A stretch of DNA of 33,344 bases. It comes from a virus. Location of the stretch: the IMG/VR virus record IMGVR_UViG_3300037294_000190, positions 1 to 33,344 of that record, one strand, 5' to 3'. The translations under genes were made by a program, and so were the position numbers. Of this stretch, positions 6,505 through 33,344 are shown piece by piece (the stretch's first letter is position 1; each line of letters starts with the position of its first letter). The notes under the pieces were generated by a model. It was given only the letters and a program-made list of their open reading frames with translations. It was not told the DNA's origin and searched no databases.

Positions 6505-8220
6505 GTGGCAGCATTATTAAGTGGAAGAGTTAAAAACCCAACGTCAACTGATGGATTCATCGGTCTAAGCGAAACACAAGTAGCGTTGGGTAATACTCCC
6601 AGAGATGATACTGGTTATGCTATCATTACAATAAACAATATTGCCACTTATACAAACAAGTTACAACAACTTCAATTTGCTACAGACAATTCTACTGAAA
6701 CTAGAATAACTAGTCAATTACCTGACGGTAATATAATAATTGAAACTACCGGAACTGGCACTATCTACTTGTTAGGTAATGTTAGTATTCCAATATTAGA
6801 TGCTCAAACTGCATTTAAAGGGCCTGTTCAAGCAGCAACTATTGAAGATGTAGACCTTATTGGCGGTGCTCCTTCTACAGTTGATGGAGTTGATCTCGAG
6901 TTAGAAAATAGAATATTAGTTAGAGCACAAACTGATCCGGCTCAGAATGGTATATACATTGTAAGTTTTGTAGGATCAGGAGCAAACGGCACTTGGTCAA
7001 GAGCGTCTGATAATAATACGGCTGACAAAATGGCATCTGCTATTGTTAGTGTGCAAGGTGGAGATACATTATCAGGAAGGTATTTTTATACAGATTTTTT
7101 ACCCAATCAAGAACTCGATGTTGATCCTGTTGCATGGTATCAATTGATTGCTGATTTTAAAGATCAATTTATAGAAAACAAAAATATTGACAACTCATCA
7201 ATTGGATTTTTTAATCCAGGTTATGGTGGATTTAACGATCTCAGAGCAGTTAGTACAACTACATCAACTGGCACAGATAGTGGCGCATTATTAGTATACG
7301 GCGGAGCAGGCATCGGCGGCGACGTTAATATTGACGGACTTACAAAAGTTTGGAATTCGACAAGTGCAACTTCTACCTTTACAGGTGCTATGCAAATAGC
7401 AGGAGGTTTAGGTGTTAACGGCGCAATTTATGCTCGATCAATATATGTTGACGGAGTACCACTAGATGAACCTTTTTGGAATGGTGGACAAATAACTAGT
7501 CCGTTCTATGTGGCTAACATCGAAGGCGCAACAAGCACCATGACAGGTGCATTAAAAGTACTCGGCGGCGCAGGCATAGGCGGTGCATTGTATGTAGGCG
7601 AAAGTATTACATTAGAAAGTCCTAATCAAGTTAATAGTGTTTACTTTCGTATGCGAAATACTGCAACTAACGGACAAAGTTACACATGGAGAGTAGGCGG
7701 AAATAACTTTGCAGGCCAAAGTGGTGCCAACTTAAATGAAGGCGGTCTAACTTTATATAATGACACAAACAATACATACCGTTTAGCAATAACAAAAGGT
7801 ACAGGAAACCTGCTTGTAGGTGCTCAAACAGACAACGGAACAGACAAATTACAAGTGTCCGGTAGTGTCCGATTCGGAGACGGTCAACTGTTTACTCGTA
7901 GTACCAGCATAAATAACACTAGTACTACAGTTATAGACAGTTTTCCTGCCGCAACTTACAGAACTGCAAAGTTATTAGTGCAAGTTGCTGACGGAATTGG
8001 GTCCGGAGCCAAGTTCCATGTAGTTGAGATCGTAACTTTACTTGATAATGACGGAAACGTTTACAAGTCAGAATACGGTATTATTACAACAGGAGGGTCG
8101 TCGGGAGAGTTTGCAGTAGATTATAATGTAGGTGGTAACGGATTAGTTAGACTATTATTCACAGCAGACCAAACAACGGCAAAATTGGTAAAAGTCTTAA
8201 GGACAGCAATAAGCAGGTAA
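6505..8220 (+). CDS. Modular tail-fibre-like structural protein with GGxGIGG repeats
   Basis: This 571-residue protein starts at a GTG one base after the previous stop. AGGAG at 6494-6498 is six bases upstream and supports that start. Residues ~107-214 form a module of the type 'ENRILVRAQTDPAQNGIYIV...GTWSRASD', widespread in phage tail fibres. Three copies of the STxTGALxVxGGxGIGG repeat follow near residues 253, 288 and 343. Residues ~375-460 resemble the 'GNLLVGAQTDNGTDKLQVSG' segment common near fibre C-termini. Residues 488-571 form a C-terminal domain (VQVxD...KFHVVE...YGIIT) that is paralogous to the end of the next gene. The tight spacing suggests co-transcription with the upstream giant gene. 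A fibre or baseplate adhesion role is inferred from the repeats and position. Confidence 0.8.
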   Translation: MAALLSGRVKNPTSTDGFIGLSETQVALGNTPRDDTGYAIITINNIATYTNKLQQLQFATDNSTETRITSQLPDGNIIIETTGTGTIYLLGNVSIPILDAQTAFKGPVQAATIEDVDLIGGAPSTVDGVDLELENRILVRAQTDPAQNGIYIVSFVGSGANGTWSRASDNNTADKMASAIVSVQGGDTLSGRYFYTDFLPNQELDVDPVAWYQLIADFKDQFIENKNIDNSSIGFFNPGYGGFNDLRAVSTTTSTGTDSGALLVYGGAGIGGDVNIDGLTKVWNSTSATSTFTGAMQIAGGLGVNGAIYARSIYVDGVPLDEPFWNGGQITSPFYVANIEGATSTMTGALKVLGGAGIGGALYVGESITLESPNQVNSVYFRMRNTATNGQSYTWRVGGNNFAGQSGANLNEGGLTLYNDTNNTYRLAITKGTGNLLVGAQTDNGTDKLQVSGSVRFGDGQLFTRSTSINNTSTTVIDSFPAATYRTAKLLVQVADGIGSGAKFHVVEIVTLLDNDGNVYKSEYGIITTGGSSGEFAVDYNVGGNGLVRLLFTADQTTAKLVKVLRTAISR

Positions 8221-11499: not shown

Positions 11500-11507
11500 T
11501 ATAAATA
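11500..11507 (+). promoter_or_regulatory. T4-type late promoter TATAAATA
   Basis: This is an exact match to the T4 late-promoter octamer, 43 bases before the ATG at 11550 and directly after a terminator. Its position between terminator and giant gene makes chance unlikely. Confidence 0.85.
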
Positions 11508-28769: not shown

Positions 28770-29974
28770 TAATTATCCGCCTGTGGTCTTTGTTTCTTTA
28801 ACGCCTTACTTAGGCTTTGTCTTTCTTCAACAACTGAACCTGCAATAGTTGCAGTATTACTATTGTTTATAAAACTGCCTACTTGAGTTTGCTTTGTATC
28901 AGCAGCAGGAGCAAGTGCTCCGTCTGCAGGCTCGTTAGTCATATTCATTCTCACATTACTTTCTACATACACCCAACTTTGACCGCTAAATCTAAATAAT
29001 CTATTAGGCAAATAATCAGTTCTTAGATGAAATGCACCTCTTGCAGGACCATACGGAAATTCAATGCCAAAAGTATAAGGTGCTCCGTTTGGAGGCTTTC
29101 CGTCTCCTTGCAAATAACTGATATAAACATCTTTATCAGGATTTACAAATACTGAACTAGCATCTATTTCGTGTGTATCTTGGCTTGCATCCGCATCTAA
29201 ACTTGTAACATCAGCAACATCTAAAGTTTGTCCGTCATCTTTTAACGGAAGAATGTAATATTGATCAGTGTCATAACCACTTAATCCTGCATCTTCTTCT
29301 GCTTGTGCAATGATTTGATTGTTAATTTCTATATTCTTACGATACTGAGACATGACATCTCGCAAAGTATTTTCTCCGTCACCTGCATCTTGATCCAATA
29401 TTTGTTTAAATTCTTGACTATCAACTAAAGGTTCACATTTAGCACGTAATAAATGCGGGTACCATGTTTGACTATATCCGCTAGCAGGTCTTGTAACATC
29501 AGTTACTACATAAAATCTTTTCAATGCAACCATGTCATCACTTAATGCATACTCGTCTTTTAAGTGAGGTAATTCTAATACATCGCCTGACATTAATTTA
29601 CGACCCATTAACTCTACACATCCACGTAGATGGAAAGTGATCATAATGTTGTCATTACTTAAGAAGAATCCAAATTGACTTAGGTTAAAATCTATGTCTT
29701 GCATGGTATAAATTCCACGGAAAACATACACATCTTTTTCGTATTTTCTATCCCTGTTTTCCATAAACAACACATCTTGTATTCCTAATTCAGGAATAGG
29801 ATTGCCATTTACAGGGGTTGTAGGAGTTGATTCACCGTCTAGCGGATCTTCAGTTCCTATATATTTGTGTACAACAATGTCAGTTCCGCCTACTTGAAAT
29901 TGCTCGTTAATAACACGATCAAGCATACGAAAGTCATTGCCTTTTTCTGGGCGGTAAAGAGATAGTCTTGGCAT
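28769..29974 (-). CDS. gp14: gp14-like neck / head-completion protein
   Basis: This 401-residue protein opens MPRLSLYRPEKGNDF and has a conserved-looking core: 'DRVINEQFQVGGTDIVVHKY', 'MENRDRKYEKDVYVFRGIY', 'FGFFLSNDNIMITFHLRG', GDVLELPHLKD and a YPHLLRAKCEPL segment. The order (GxD...P, SKFG-like strand, GDLIYLP-like loop, LxxKCE strand) resembles T4 gp14, a neck protein that closes the head and joins it to the tail. T4 gp14 is about 256 residues; the extra length is a C-terminal region with acidic and fibre-like stretches. Context with gp15-like and gp13-like neighbours supports a neck role. No ribosome site precedes the ATG. A late promoter only seven bases upstream implies a leaderless mRNA, unless Met17 (29926) is the start. 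Confidence 0.6.
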   Translation of the reverse strand: MPRLSLYRPEKGNDFRMLDRVINEQFQVGGTDIVVHKYIGTEDPLDGESTPTTPVNGNPIPELGIQDVLFMENRDRKYEKDVYVFRGIYTMQDIDFNLSQFGFFLSNDNIMITFHLRGCVELMGRKLMSGDVLELPHLKDEYALSDDMVALKRFYVVTDVTRPASGYSQTWYPHLLRAKCEPLVDSQEFKQILDQDAGDGENTLRDVMSQYRKNIEINNQIIAQAEEDAGLSGYDTDQYYILPLKDDGQTLDVADVTSLDADASQDTHEIDASSVFVNPDKDVYISYLQGDGKPPNGAPYTFGIEFPYGPARGAFHLRTDYLPNRLFRFSGQSWVYVESNVRMNMTNEPADGALAPAADTKQTQVGSFINNSNTATIAGSVVEERQSLSKALKKQRPQADN

Positions 29975-29981
29975 AGTCTTG

Positions 29982-29989
29982 TATTTATA
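29982..29989 (-). promoter_or_regulatory. Late promoter TATAAATA, minus strand
   Basis: The plus strand reads TATTTATA here, an exact late-promoter octamer on the minus strand. It lies seven bases from the gp14-like ATG, so transcription would start at or just before the start codon. Confidence 0.75.
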
Positions 29990-29997
29990 GGTAAATA
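29990..29997 (+). promoter_or_regulatory. Possible late promoter GGTAAATA, plus strand
   Basis: It abuts the minus-strand octamer back to back and sits five bases before the gp13-like ATG. It matches the late consensus at six of eight positions. Confidence 0.35.
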
Positions 29998-30002
29998 ACT
30001 AC

Positions 30003-30761
30003 ATGAGCGAACTAGAAACTGAAAAACAAAGTGTCGTAGATTATATCCGTACTATGCTAGGTGACGGTATGATTGATGTTGAACTCGATCCTGTACATTA
30101 CAATACAGCAATAGATCGATCCCTGCGTTATTATAGAGCACGAAGTCAAAACTCTGTTGAAGAAAGTTTTGGATTTTTAACTTTGCAAACAGACGTTAAC
30201 GACTACACTCTTTCAGACGAAGTGATGCAAGTTCGGCAAGTTTTTAGACGCAGTATTGGATCTAGAACAGGAGGAGGCGATGGCGGAAGTTTGTTCGAAC
30301 CGTTTAATCTTGCCTACAGTAATACTTATTTGTTGTCAAGCAGCAATATGGGCGGTTTAGCAACTTACTATGCTTTTGCCAGTTATCAAAAGCAAGTTGG
30401 TAAAATGTTTGGCTCCCATATTAACTTTGAATGGAATCCTACTACAAAGCATTTACATATTAGCCAGCGTCCACGTGGAGAAGAAGTAGTGTTGTTATGG
30501 ATGTACAATTACAAACCGGATTTTTCTCTATTTAAAGACACATGGTCAGGTATATGGATACGTGATTATGCATTAGCAAACTGCAAAATTATGCTAGGCG
30601 AAGCACGTGAAAAGTTTAGTCAAATTGCTAGTCCTCAAGGAGGAACTAGTCTAAACGGTTCTGCACTTAAATCAGAAGGCAAAGCAGAACTAGAACGGCT
30701 AGAAATGGACTTAATCAACAACAAAGATAACCAACAACCATTGACATTTGTCATAGGATAA
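30003..30761 (+). CDS. gp13: gp13-like neck protein
   Basis: This 252-residue soluble protein starts at ATG 30003. Its plan is an N-terminal helix pair (DYIRTMLGDGMIDVELDPVH), YNTAIDRSLRYYRARS, a strand NDYTLSDEVMQVRQVFRRS, and MYNYKPDF followed by WIRDYALANCKIMLGEAREKF. This fits T4 gp13-type neck proteins and virion proteins of marine T4-like phages. In T4, gp13 and gp14 complete the head-tail connector. The divergent gp14-like and gp15-like genes support the assignment. No good Shine-Dalgarno is visible; the nearest is AGG eleven bases away. A late-promoter-like octamer ends five bases before the ATG. It may be a paralogue rather than the gp13 orthologue. Confidence 0.6.
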   Translation: MSELETEKQSVVDYIRTMLGDGMIDVELDPVHYNTAIDRSLRYYRARSQNSVEESFGFLTLQTDVNDYTLSDEVMQVRQVFRRSIGSRTGGGDGGSLFEPFNLAYSNTYLLSSSNMGGLATYYAFASYQKQVGKMFGSHINFEWNPTTKHLHISQRPRGEEVVLLWMYNYKPDFSLFKDTWSGIWIRDYALANCKIMLGEAREKFSQIASPQGGTSLNGSALKSEGKAELERLEMDLINNKDNQQPLTFVIG

Positions 30762-30769
30762 TATAAATT
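30762..30769 (+). promoter_or_regulatory. Probable late promoter TATAAATT
   Basis: It matches TATAAATA at seven of eight positions, directly after the gp13-like stop and 21 bases before the kinase ATG. The expected start site (about six bases downstream, near 30775) falls inside the left arm of the hairpin at 30770-30792. Confidence 0.6.
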
Positions 30770-30792
30770 ATAGTATTACGAGGTAATACTAT
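30770..30792 (+). promoter_or_regulatory. Start-codon hairpin with ribosome site in the loop
   Basis: ATAGTATTAC (30770-30779) and GTAATACTAT (30783-30792) are perfect 10-bp complements around a GAG loop. The ribosome site GAGG (30780-30783) is at the loop, and the first two bases of the kinase ATG (30791-30793) are in the right arm. No T-tract follows, so it is not a terminator. Confidence 0.8.
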
Positions 30793-31444
30793 GATCATTG
30801 GAGTGTGTGGGTTTATTGGTTCTGGTAAAGATACTGTAGCAGATTATCTTACTAATATACATGAATTTCGAAGAGAATCGTTTGCAAATTCTCTCAAAGA
30901 TGCAGTAGCATCAGTATTTGGATGGGACCGAACTATGCTAGAAGGCCGCACTAAACATGCTCGTCAGTGGCGAGAACAAGTAGACCCGTGGTGGGCAGAA
31001 CGACTAGCAATGCCTCATCTAACACCACGCTGGATCTTACAATACTGGGGTACAGAAGTTTGTCGTAAAAGTTTCCACGATGATATATGGATCGCCAGCC
31101 TCGAAAATAAACTACGTAATAGCAAAGATGATATTGTTATTAGTGATTGCCGTTTTCCGAACGAAATTAAAAGTATTCGAAATTCAGGTGGTATTGTAGT
31201 TCGTGTAAAGCGTGGAGATGATCCCGAATGGTATCGAGATGCAGCAGATATGAATGCCGGAGATCAATGCATGAATTGGGCATTAGCAACTAGTCGAATA
31301 AAAAAGTTAAGTATTCATGCTAGCGAAACTGCATGGGTAGGAACTAAGTTTGATGCCGTATTGGATAATAACGGAACAATTGACGATTTGTATGAACAAG
31401 TTAAAAATCTGGTGTTAGATCCCCCCGGCGCCACGTCTGCTTGA
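30791..31444 (+). CDS. Deoxynucleoside monophosphate kinase, T4 gp1-like
   Basis: This 217-residue P-loop kinase resembles T4 gene 1 product, which phosphorylates dNMPs to dNDPs for phage DNA synthesis in the cytoplasm. The Walker A loop is GFIGSGKDT (residues 7-15, Lys13). Further family-like features are 'RWILQYWGTEVCR', SDCRFPNEI at 118-126 (LID/substrate region) and IHASET near residue 176. Length is near the T4 enzyme (about 241). Its ATG is embedded in a perfect hairpin and a probable late promoter lies just upstream. A nucleotide-metabolism gene inside a neck/tail gene cluster is a known marine-phage habit but unlike T4 placement of late structural genes. The last 14 codons are read on the opposite strand by the HNH gene. 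Confidence 0.88.
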   Translation: MIIGVCGFIGSGKDTVADYLTNIHEFRRESFANSLKDAVASVFGWDRTMLEGRTKHARQWREQVDPWWAERLAMPHLTPRWILQYWGTEVCRKSFHDDIWIASLENKLRNSKDDIVISDCRFPNEIKSIRNSGGIVVRVKRGDDPEWYRDAADMNAGDQCMNWALATSRIKKLSIHASETAWVGTKFDAVLDNNGTIDDLYEQVKNLVLDPPGATSA

Positions 31445-31733
31445 GTTTATGCAATAGTCTCTGACAGTTAGCACAAACTGTTTTTAGATTTTCGTATTTG
31501 CAATTGTTAATATCTCCGTCTACATAATGTACATCAAACTGGCAGTCATCGCCTTTGAAGCCGCATCTATCACAAGCGGCTTTCTTTTTATAACCTGATT
31601 TCCTCCAAGCAGGTTTAGATTTTTCAAAACCTTTAGCACAATGATCACATATTGATCTATAATATGTACGGTCATCTTTCTTATAATTGACAGCAACAGG
31701 TCTACTATGACATTTTTTACATAAATCTCTCAT
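31401..31733 (-). CDS. HNH endonuclease-like zinc protein
   Basis: This 110-residue protein has two zinc-ribbon Cys pairs in its N-terminal half (Cys5/Cys8 and Cys29/Cys32). An HNH-like core follows: Cys54/Cys57, His69 and Asp72 in DVHYVDGD, Asn82 in ENLKTVCANC, Cys87/Cys90 and His95. This is the layout of small free-standing HNH nucleases in T4-like phages, which act as homing enzymes or have unknown host/phage DNA roles. The start follows AAGGGTGGAG on the minus strand. The 3' end overlaps the kinase by 44 bases in antisense. No intron or interrupted target gene is seen nearby. Nuclease activity is inferred. Confidence 0.75.
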   Translation of the reverse strand: MRDLCKKCHSRPVAVNYKKDDRTYYRSICDHCAKGFEKSKPAWRKSGYKKKAACDRCGFKGDDCQFDVHYVDGDINNCKYENLKTVCANCQRLLHKLKQTWRRGDLTPDF

Positions 31734-31838: not shown

Positions 31839-33344
31839 ATGGCTTTAAATTCACCAGGCGTAGAAGTATCAGTAATTGACGAAAGTTTTTACTTACCAGC
31901 GGCTCCGTCCACTGTACCTATGATCTTTGTTGCATCGGCAGCAAACAAACAAAATGCAAGCGGCACAGGCTTAGCGGTCGGAACTGATCCTGCTAATGCC
32001 GGTAAAGTATATTTAATTACTAGCCAACGAGATTTATCCGATACGTTCGGTACACCGTTGTTCTATACAGACAGCAGTGGTAATCCTGTTCACGGCGGGG
32101 AACTAAACGAATATGGTCTACAAGCAGCCTATTCTGTATTAGGCGTAAGCAGTCGTGCATACGTTACTCGTGCTGACTTAGACTTATCACAATTAACACC
32201 GCAAGCAAGCGCACCTACAGGGTCTCCAGTAGATGGAACATACTGGGTAGATACTTCGAACACTAGATTTGGTGTGTTCGAGTGGAATGGAACTAGTGCA
32301 GCATTTACTAACAAAATGCCTCTAGTTATTGACAACGATAACGCTGCTACTGCAACAGTAAGCGGAGCAGGAGTTACTCCTAAAGCAAGTTTTGGTTCTA
32401 ACGGACAATATGCTATTGTTGTAACAAGTGATAACACAAATACTTTATGGTACAAAAATTCTAGCGGAAATTGGGTTGCAGTAGGTACTGACTTTGAAAC
32501 AAATTTTAACAATACAGATACATTTGCAAGTTCTAGTTGGAAAACCAGTTTTCCAACGACAACTGGTACAGTATCGAGCCCGGACTTAACAGGTTACAAC
32601 GGTAACACTTTGCTTATTAATGGCGAAGTTGTTACATTAAGCGGTACTACTATTAGTGCATTAGCATCCAGCATTAACGCAACAATGCGTACAAAAGGTG
32701 TTGGAGCACGTATCAATGCAGGTGGCTTTATTGAATTATATTCTGATGCAAGAGCAAGAAGCAACGGTACTGTATTAGATGGAAAAATTACTATTGCAGA
32801 AGGTACTGGATTAGTTGATATGATAACTGATGCGGGCTTAGCAGAAGGAACATTTAACAGTCCCACACTATTCCAAGGTCCCCATACTAAGTATCCTGAT
32901 TTTAGCAATTTCCCTACAGGATCTGTATATGTAAAAACTACAACACCTAATACTGGTGCAGATTGGTATGTTAAAACATACGATAACGGTAGTTCTGCAT
33001 TTACTTTAATGAGTGCTCCTATATACACTGATCCCCAAACTGCTATTAATAACATTAATGCAACTGGTGATATTACAGTAGGTTCTGTATTTGTACAACA
33101 AAACTACCAAGGTGGCGTTGGAACAGCATCTACTTCAACTGTAACTCCTCAATTAGCATCATATAAAATATGGCGTAGAAATGCAACAGGTGCTACTAAA
33201 ATATCTTCTGTCGCTACAACTGACACAGTTACAACAGCATCAAGTTTTGTAATTGCAGAAGGCTTAGCAACTTCTACAAATGGTGTTGCAGATTACAGTT
33301 CTGCCTACACAGTTAGTTTAACAGCAGGCGACAGTGTTGATGAT
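31839..33344 (+). CDS. gp18: Tail sheath protein, 3' end outside window
   Basis: The frame is open from ATG 31839 (GTGGGAG eight bases upstream) to the right edge: 502 codons and no stop. The N-terminus MALNSPGVEVSVIDE and the following AAPSTVPMIFVASAANK, 'NEYGLQAAYSVLGVSSRAYV' and VTRADLDL are the hallmark opening of contractile-tail sheath subunits. Residues ~128-150 contain a PVDGTYWVDT...FEWNG module. Residues ~252-330 look like an inserted surface domain (LLINGEVVTLSGTTISALAS). T4 gp18 is 659 residues, so the C-terminal sheath-sheath contact domain is still to come. The subunit polymerises around the tail tube and contracts on infection. Confidence 0.88.
   Translation, partial: MALNSPGVEVSVIDESFYLPAAPSTVPMIFVASAANKQNASGTGLAVGTDPANAGKVYLITSQRDLSDTFGTPLFYTDSSGNPVHGGELNEYGLQAAYSVLGVSSRAYVTRADLDLSQLTPQASAPTGSPVDGTYWVDTSNTRFGVFEWNGTSAAFTNKMPLVIDNDNAATATVSGAGVTPKASFGSNGQYAIVVTSDNTNTLWYKNSSGNWVAVGTDFETNFNNTDTFASSSWKTSFPTTTGTVSSPDLTGYNGNTLLINGEVVTLSGTTISALASSINATMRTKGVGARINAGGFIELYSDARARSNGTVLDGKITIAEGTGLVDMITDAGLAEGTFNSPTLFQGPHTKYPDFSNFPTGSVYVKTTTPNTGADWYVKTYDNGSSAFTLMSAPIYTDPQTAINNINATGDITVGSVFVQQNYQGGVGTASTSTVTPQLASYKIWRRNATGATKISSVATTDTVTTASSFVIAEGLATSTNGVADYSSAYTVSLTAGDSVDD

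Follow-up and report, generated by a model that had tools for sequence, protein, structure and literature searches.

The deoxynucleoside monophosphate kinase gene of a 33-kb virus record (33,344 nt, hereafter the window) probably carries, embedded in its own promoter, a lock against read-through. Judging from the letters and from modelled RNA folding, the RNA made from this promoter would be translated early, and the late read-through RNA of the neck gene in front of it would be silenced. In the proposed mechanism, the kinase would be driven by the sigma70-type promoter TTGACA-N17-TAAATT, the RNA starting near 30776 would lack most of the left arm of a hairpin and leave the ribosome site open, and the enzyme would be made early, in the phase when host-type promoters are in use. 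At a later stage, RNA from the neck gene would run through, with no terminator between the two genes, and this RNA would carry the whole left arm, the Shine-Dalgarno and ATG would be folded up, and the kinase cistron would stay silent on late RNA.

Promoter and hairpin at the kinase start

The kinase (217 aa, 30791..31444, plus strand; phrog_139, E 3e-54; PF21448) lies 29 nt behind a head-tail adaptor Ad2/neck gene on the same strand (252 aa, 30003..30761; phrog_211, E 1e-32; tblastn matches to jumbo-phage neck proteins). The closest cultured relatives are the jumbo phages PBECO4, RaK2, Munch, PA5oct, Atu_ph07 and Phosso, where the kinase is also found near virion genes, usually between the neck and the tail sheath, and in all the relatives where the neck gene is present (151/151) it lies upstream of the kinase on the same strand. 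This neck gene is a late structural gene and the expected origin of the read-through RNA reaching the kinase; a terminator for it was sought in 29900-31500, with no T-run or terminator-like site found. At the other end, an HNH-endonuclease-like ORF (31401-31733) is convergent to the kinase and overlaps its 3' end by 44 nt, and an inverted repeat at 32529-32564 (17 nt, 88%, 2-nt loop), possibly a terminator, sits between minus-strand ORFs.

In sigma70 promoters, the spacing rule places the transcription start a few nucleotides past the -10 box. The strongest sigma70-like match in this region, 10/12, consists of a -35 box TTGACA (30741..30746, plus strand), which lies within the final codons of the neck gene and was overlooked in the earlier, sequence-only reading of this DNA, and a -10 box TAAATT (30764..30769, plus strand), a weak one, 17 bp past it and overlapping TATAAATT (30762-30769). 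By this spacing, transcription is predicted to start on the plus strand at 30776 (plus or minus 1), 7 nt past the -10 box, and a start near 30775-30777 is a reasonable prediction for a sigma70-type and a late promoter alike. Distinct kinase loci were taken at an identity to this kinase of 55% or more, and of these 133 loci, 106 carry TTGAC followed by TANANT, a promoter of the sigma70 type, directly before the ATG. All 106 show the TTGAC-type box at a spacing of 16-18 bp, with a spacer of 17 bp in 97, and the distance from the end of the -10 box to the ATG is 19-24 nt in 98 of them. In the window and in four further loci (L026, L033, L101 and L102) the end of the neck gene contains the -35 box, and in most others this box comes past the neck stop; the -35/-10 spacing is kept in both situations, which argues for a real promoter.

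Just behind the -10 box, 30770-30792 reads ATAGTATTAC-GAG-GTAATACTAT, a perfect 10-bp stem with the kinase ATG in its right arm, exactly as the sequence-only reading had described it; its loop of 3 nt is also correct, but consists of GAG and not of GAGG, the fourth G being already paired. Three more pairs (U.G, U-A and A-U) extend the stem to 13, with the left arm at 30767..30779 and the right arm, including the ATG (30791-30793), at 30783..30795, both on the plus strand. The Shine-Dalgarno GAGGT (30780..30784, plus strand) provides the loop with its GAG and opens the right arm with its GT. The predicted RNA energy of this hairpin is -11.7 kcal/mol, versus -3.6 kcal/mol for shuffles (z -4.3), and no known RNA family from Rfam reaches its gathering score within the window. 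The hairpin is above chance, chiefly because its pairing is kept in relatives. The part of the left arm between the -10 box and the predicted start (30770-30775) would be absent from the RNA of the kinase's own promoter.

The consequences of this arrangement for the ribosome site were estimated as the predicted cost of opening it. Over the loci, the mean cost is 4.3 kcal/mol in the own-promoter RNA, 8.4 kcal/mol in the read-through RNA and 5.8 kcal/mol with a shuffled upstream sequence; in the window, the corresponding values are 4.3, 11.2 and 4.4 kcal/mol. Other genes with early promoters, taken as a control, display no clear increase over shuffles in 26 of 28 cases (z below 2). The remaining two do: G003:15172, with a z of 5.5, follows immediately after an 878-aa repetitive gene without a family match, which we call fibre-like from our reading of its sequence, and G001:160019, with a z of 2.4, comes after a head-morphogenesis/co-chaperonin gene.

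Conserved pairing and alternative builds

In relatives, what lies before the predicted start is complementary to the Shine-Dalgarno/ATG region and covaries with it, the arms being built of differing letters, such as TAGAGC/GCTCTA, TAGCG/CGCTA, TAGCAT/ATGCTA, ATAGTATC/GATACTAT and AATTGTTCT/AGGACAATT. This pairing was measured in a fixed register set by the class of the -10 box (three classes), with the rows permuted 5000 times. In the TATACT class, 78% of the fixed-register cells are paired versus 65% after permutation (0/5000 as high), with several Watson-Crick types at positions -2 to -5, and the z-values of 5.9 for this class and of 3.1 and 3.0 for the other two in their own registers overstate independence, as the loci are mutually related and derived from IMG/VR. 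In every slid register the pairing falls. A register search among 44 dissimilar representatives likewise found that own arms beat swapped arms (z 5.9, 0/20000), and an earlier swap test on the predicted untranscribed segment only gave a z of 5.2. An excess of G.U over A.C is expected for an RNA stem and not for a DNA palindrome; the ratio is 18:3 in own arms versus 632:245 in swaps, a difference that leans towards RNA but is not significant (p 0.22), and the count in the untranscribed segment was likewise indecisive. The covariation in related phages, on which the sequence-only reading had made its hairpin depend, is thus present, and what relatives conserve is the design of the stem, not its sequence.

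The same end appears to be served by more than one build, and the arm placements replace each other. Where no hairpin follows the -10 box (33 loci), it is the promoter spacer that is complementary to the Shine-Dalgarno (12.8 versus 10.7; z 4.5, 0/10000), as in CCCCTCA/TGAGGGG and CCCCTGT/ACAGGGG, whereas the 73 loci with that hairpin have no such excess (z 0.0); over all the loci this pairing is weak (z 1.8), and it becomes clear only once they are split by the other hairpin. In five loci (L142, L131, L111, L122 and L123) the -10 box lies 5-6 nt before the ATG, an arrangement that predicts a leaderless kinase RNA. Neither pairing is found in about 17 of the 106 promoter loci. All these promoter-bearing solutions place the element that blocks, or that is lacking, before the predicted start, which is hard to explain unless RNA coming from further upstream matters. 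Covariation and alternative placements together support, as far as modelled structures go, the core logic of the sequence-only reading, namely that own-promoter RNA is free and read-through RNA is locked.

Some loci have a kinase without its own promoter, most of them separated from the neck gene by at least 560 nt and by another gene. In three of these loci, L054, L046 and L060, an exonuclease-type gene placed between neck and kinase bears a TTGAC promoter at its start, and its stem is strong in L054 and L046. The promoter module is absent from the enterobacterial relatives GAP32, CBB and Munch, which have a terminator-like hairpin instead. Such a hairpin, with a T-run and no promoter module, is seen in seven enterobacterial and Xanthomonas jumbo-phage loci (L214, L216, L219, L220, L221, L223 and L225), about 20-60 nt before the kinase and after the neck gene or a small ORF. 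It could be speculated that the enterobacterial hairpins are another route to the same end.

Promoter class, timing and rival explanations

The timing depends on the class of the kinase promoter. TATAAATT matches 7/8 of the T4 late octamer and also occurs at 7166, 10129, 13002, 24872, 28719 and 29707 in the window, where one-mismatch octamers are scarcer than chance (71 observed versus 94 expected). The late octamer ending at 30769 in the sequence-only reading is therefore there, but as one of several and at no more than 7/8, and a 7/8 octamer precedes the kinase in 9 of 156 relatives, a perfect one in none. The three perfect TATAAATA octamers of the window, at 11500, 17904 and 29989 (minus strand), each have a large structural gene 7-42 nt downstream, as expected of late promoters. 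Over the contigs of four relatives (641 kb), the two promoter classes are split by gene content: the genes behind TTGAC-N17-TATAAT sites are non-structural, among them those of the late sigma factor and an SbcD-like nuclease, and the genes behind perfect TATAAATA sites are those of the tail sheath and baseplate hub and fibre-like ones. A T4-like late sigma factor has been reported for Atu_ph07 and most RaK2-like phages (PMC6102473). The late-octamer reading of the kinase promoter was rejected. Since TTGAC-N17-TANANT is conserved and the octamer is not, and since TATAAATA sites stand before virion genes, the promoter is probably of the early type, as judged by its sequence and the company of genes it keeps. 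The order of events in the sequence-only reading, with early read-through blocked and the kinase made late, is thus probably inverted, this promoter class preceding replication-type genes. In the window itself, TATAAATT might serve the late polymerase too, with TAAATT used by both polymerases.

A lock of the T4 gene e type, where TATAAATT would be a late promoter and the kinase a late product because early read-through is blocked, is in our judgement unlikely. It would account for the 7/8 octamer at the right distance, it suits phages whose late genes are preceded by perfect TATAAATA sites and which also encode a late sigma factor, and it has precedents in e, soc, 49 and I-TevI of T4, whose ribosome sites are sequestered in read-through RNA and open in the RNA from an internal promoter (PMC3014915). 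However, the gene upstream of the kinase is late, so early read-through is not an obvious threat, and it is the sigma70-type arrangement that relatives have kept. Less probable still is that the palindrome acts as DNA, as the operator of a phage repressor covering the -10 box and the start site: even though a symmetric sequence centred beside a transcription start occupies the classic operator position, the arm letters vary widely among relatives with their pairing kept, the second arm is found now behind the -10 box, now in the spacer, and G.U exceeds A.C, although not significantly.

The AU-rich stem over the ribosome site is thermometer-like, and the sequence-only reading had also suggested a temperature or protein sensor at the loop-exposed site, acting on the main kinase mRNA. 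We consider this improbable to a high degree, and found it unsupported, given that the left arm would be missing from the own-promoter RNA and that stem and loop are unconserved in sequence, unlike a protein site. Chance complementarity in AT-rich DNA deserves the least credence of all; TATAAT-like boxes do pair with ATTATG by composition, and 22% of swapped arms are already above threshold, but three tests placed own arms above swapped ones, and the block is missing from ordinary early-promoter genes.

Known relatives of the proposed lock and its implications

The proposed promoter-embedded lock shares with T4 gene e a promoter overlapping the 5' arm, with a long RNA that folds over the Shine-Dalgarno and AUG and a short RNA that cannot; here too, according to predicted structure, covariation and the predicted start, the stem would be formable by upstream-initiated RNA only. 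It differs in that the internal promoter of T4 is late, with TATAAATA as its octamer, and early RNA is blocked, whereas here the octamer is an unconserved 7/8 match, the promoter belongs to the sigma70 type and late RNA should be what is blocked; moreover, the gene is a nucleotide kinase and the placement of the arm varies between relatives.

The transposase genes of IS10 and IS50 are protected by a fold-back against transcription from outside. There, as in the kinase lock, the own promoter lies inside the upstream arm and only outside RNA folds over the start; in the modelled structures, the kinase promoter lies within the arm by which outside RNA would block translation. Contrary to these elements, here the gene is a dNMP kinase (phrog_139, PF21448) and not a transposase, no mobile element is involved, and the protection would be against the phage's own late transcription. 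The kinase homologues of Atu_ph07 and Phosso also have strong hairpins over the Shine-Dalgarno (Atu_ph07 L224, 2432-2510, z -6.1; Phosso L217, 2430-2510, z -4.4), but their promoters are less clear and the whole element was not found described there. A literature search for an identical phage arrangement returned T4 reviews only. The kinase lock would thus represent the logic of T4 gene e and of the insertion-sequence fold-back in a new form, likely with its timing reversed.

Tentatively, and at somewhat less than even chance, the lock may follow a rule widespread in this lineage of jumbo phages, by which an early gene lying behind a late gene has a promoter that encodes the block on its own read-through translation. 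The builds would be interchangeable (an arm after the -10 box, an arm in the spacer, or a leaderless start), and the rule would extend to other genes, such as the exonuclease of L054 and L046 and G003:15172 behind its fibre-like gene. Any phage genome can be screened for the pattern, from which clear expectations follow for start-site mapping and for ribosome profiling. The arrangement would mean that the sequence between box and start site is selected as an RNA that its own promoter never makes, and it suggests how an early enzyme can be encoded within a late gene cluster of a phage and yet not be mis-expressed.
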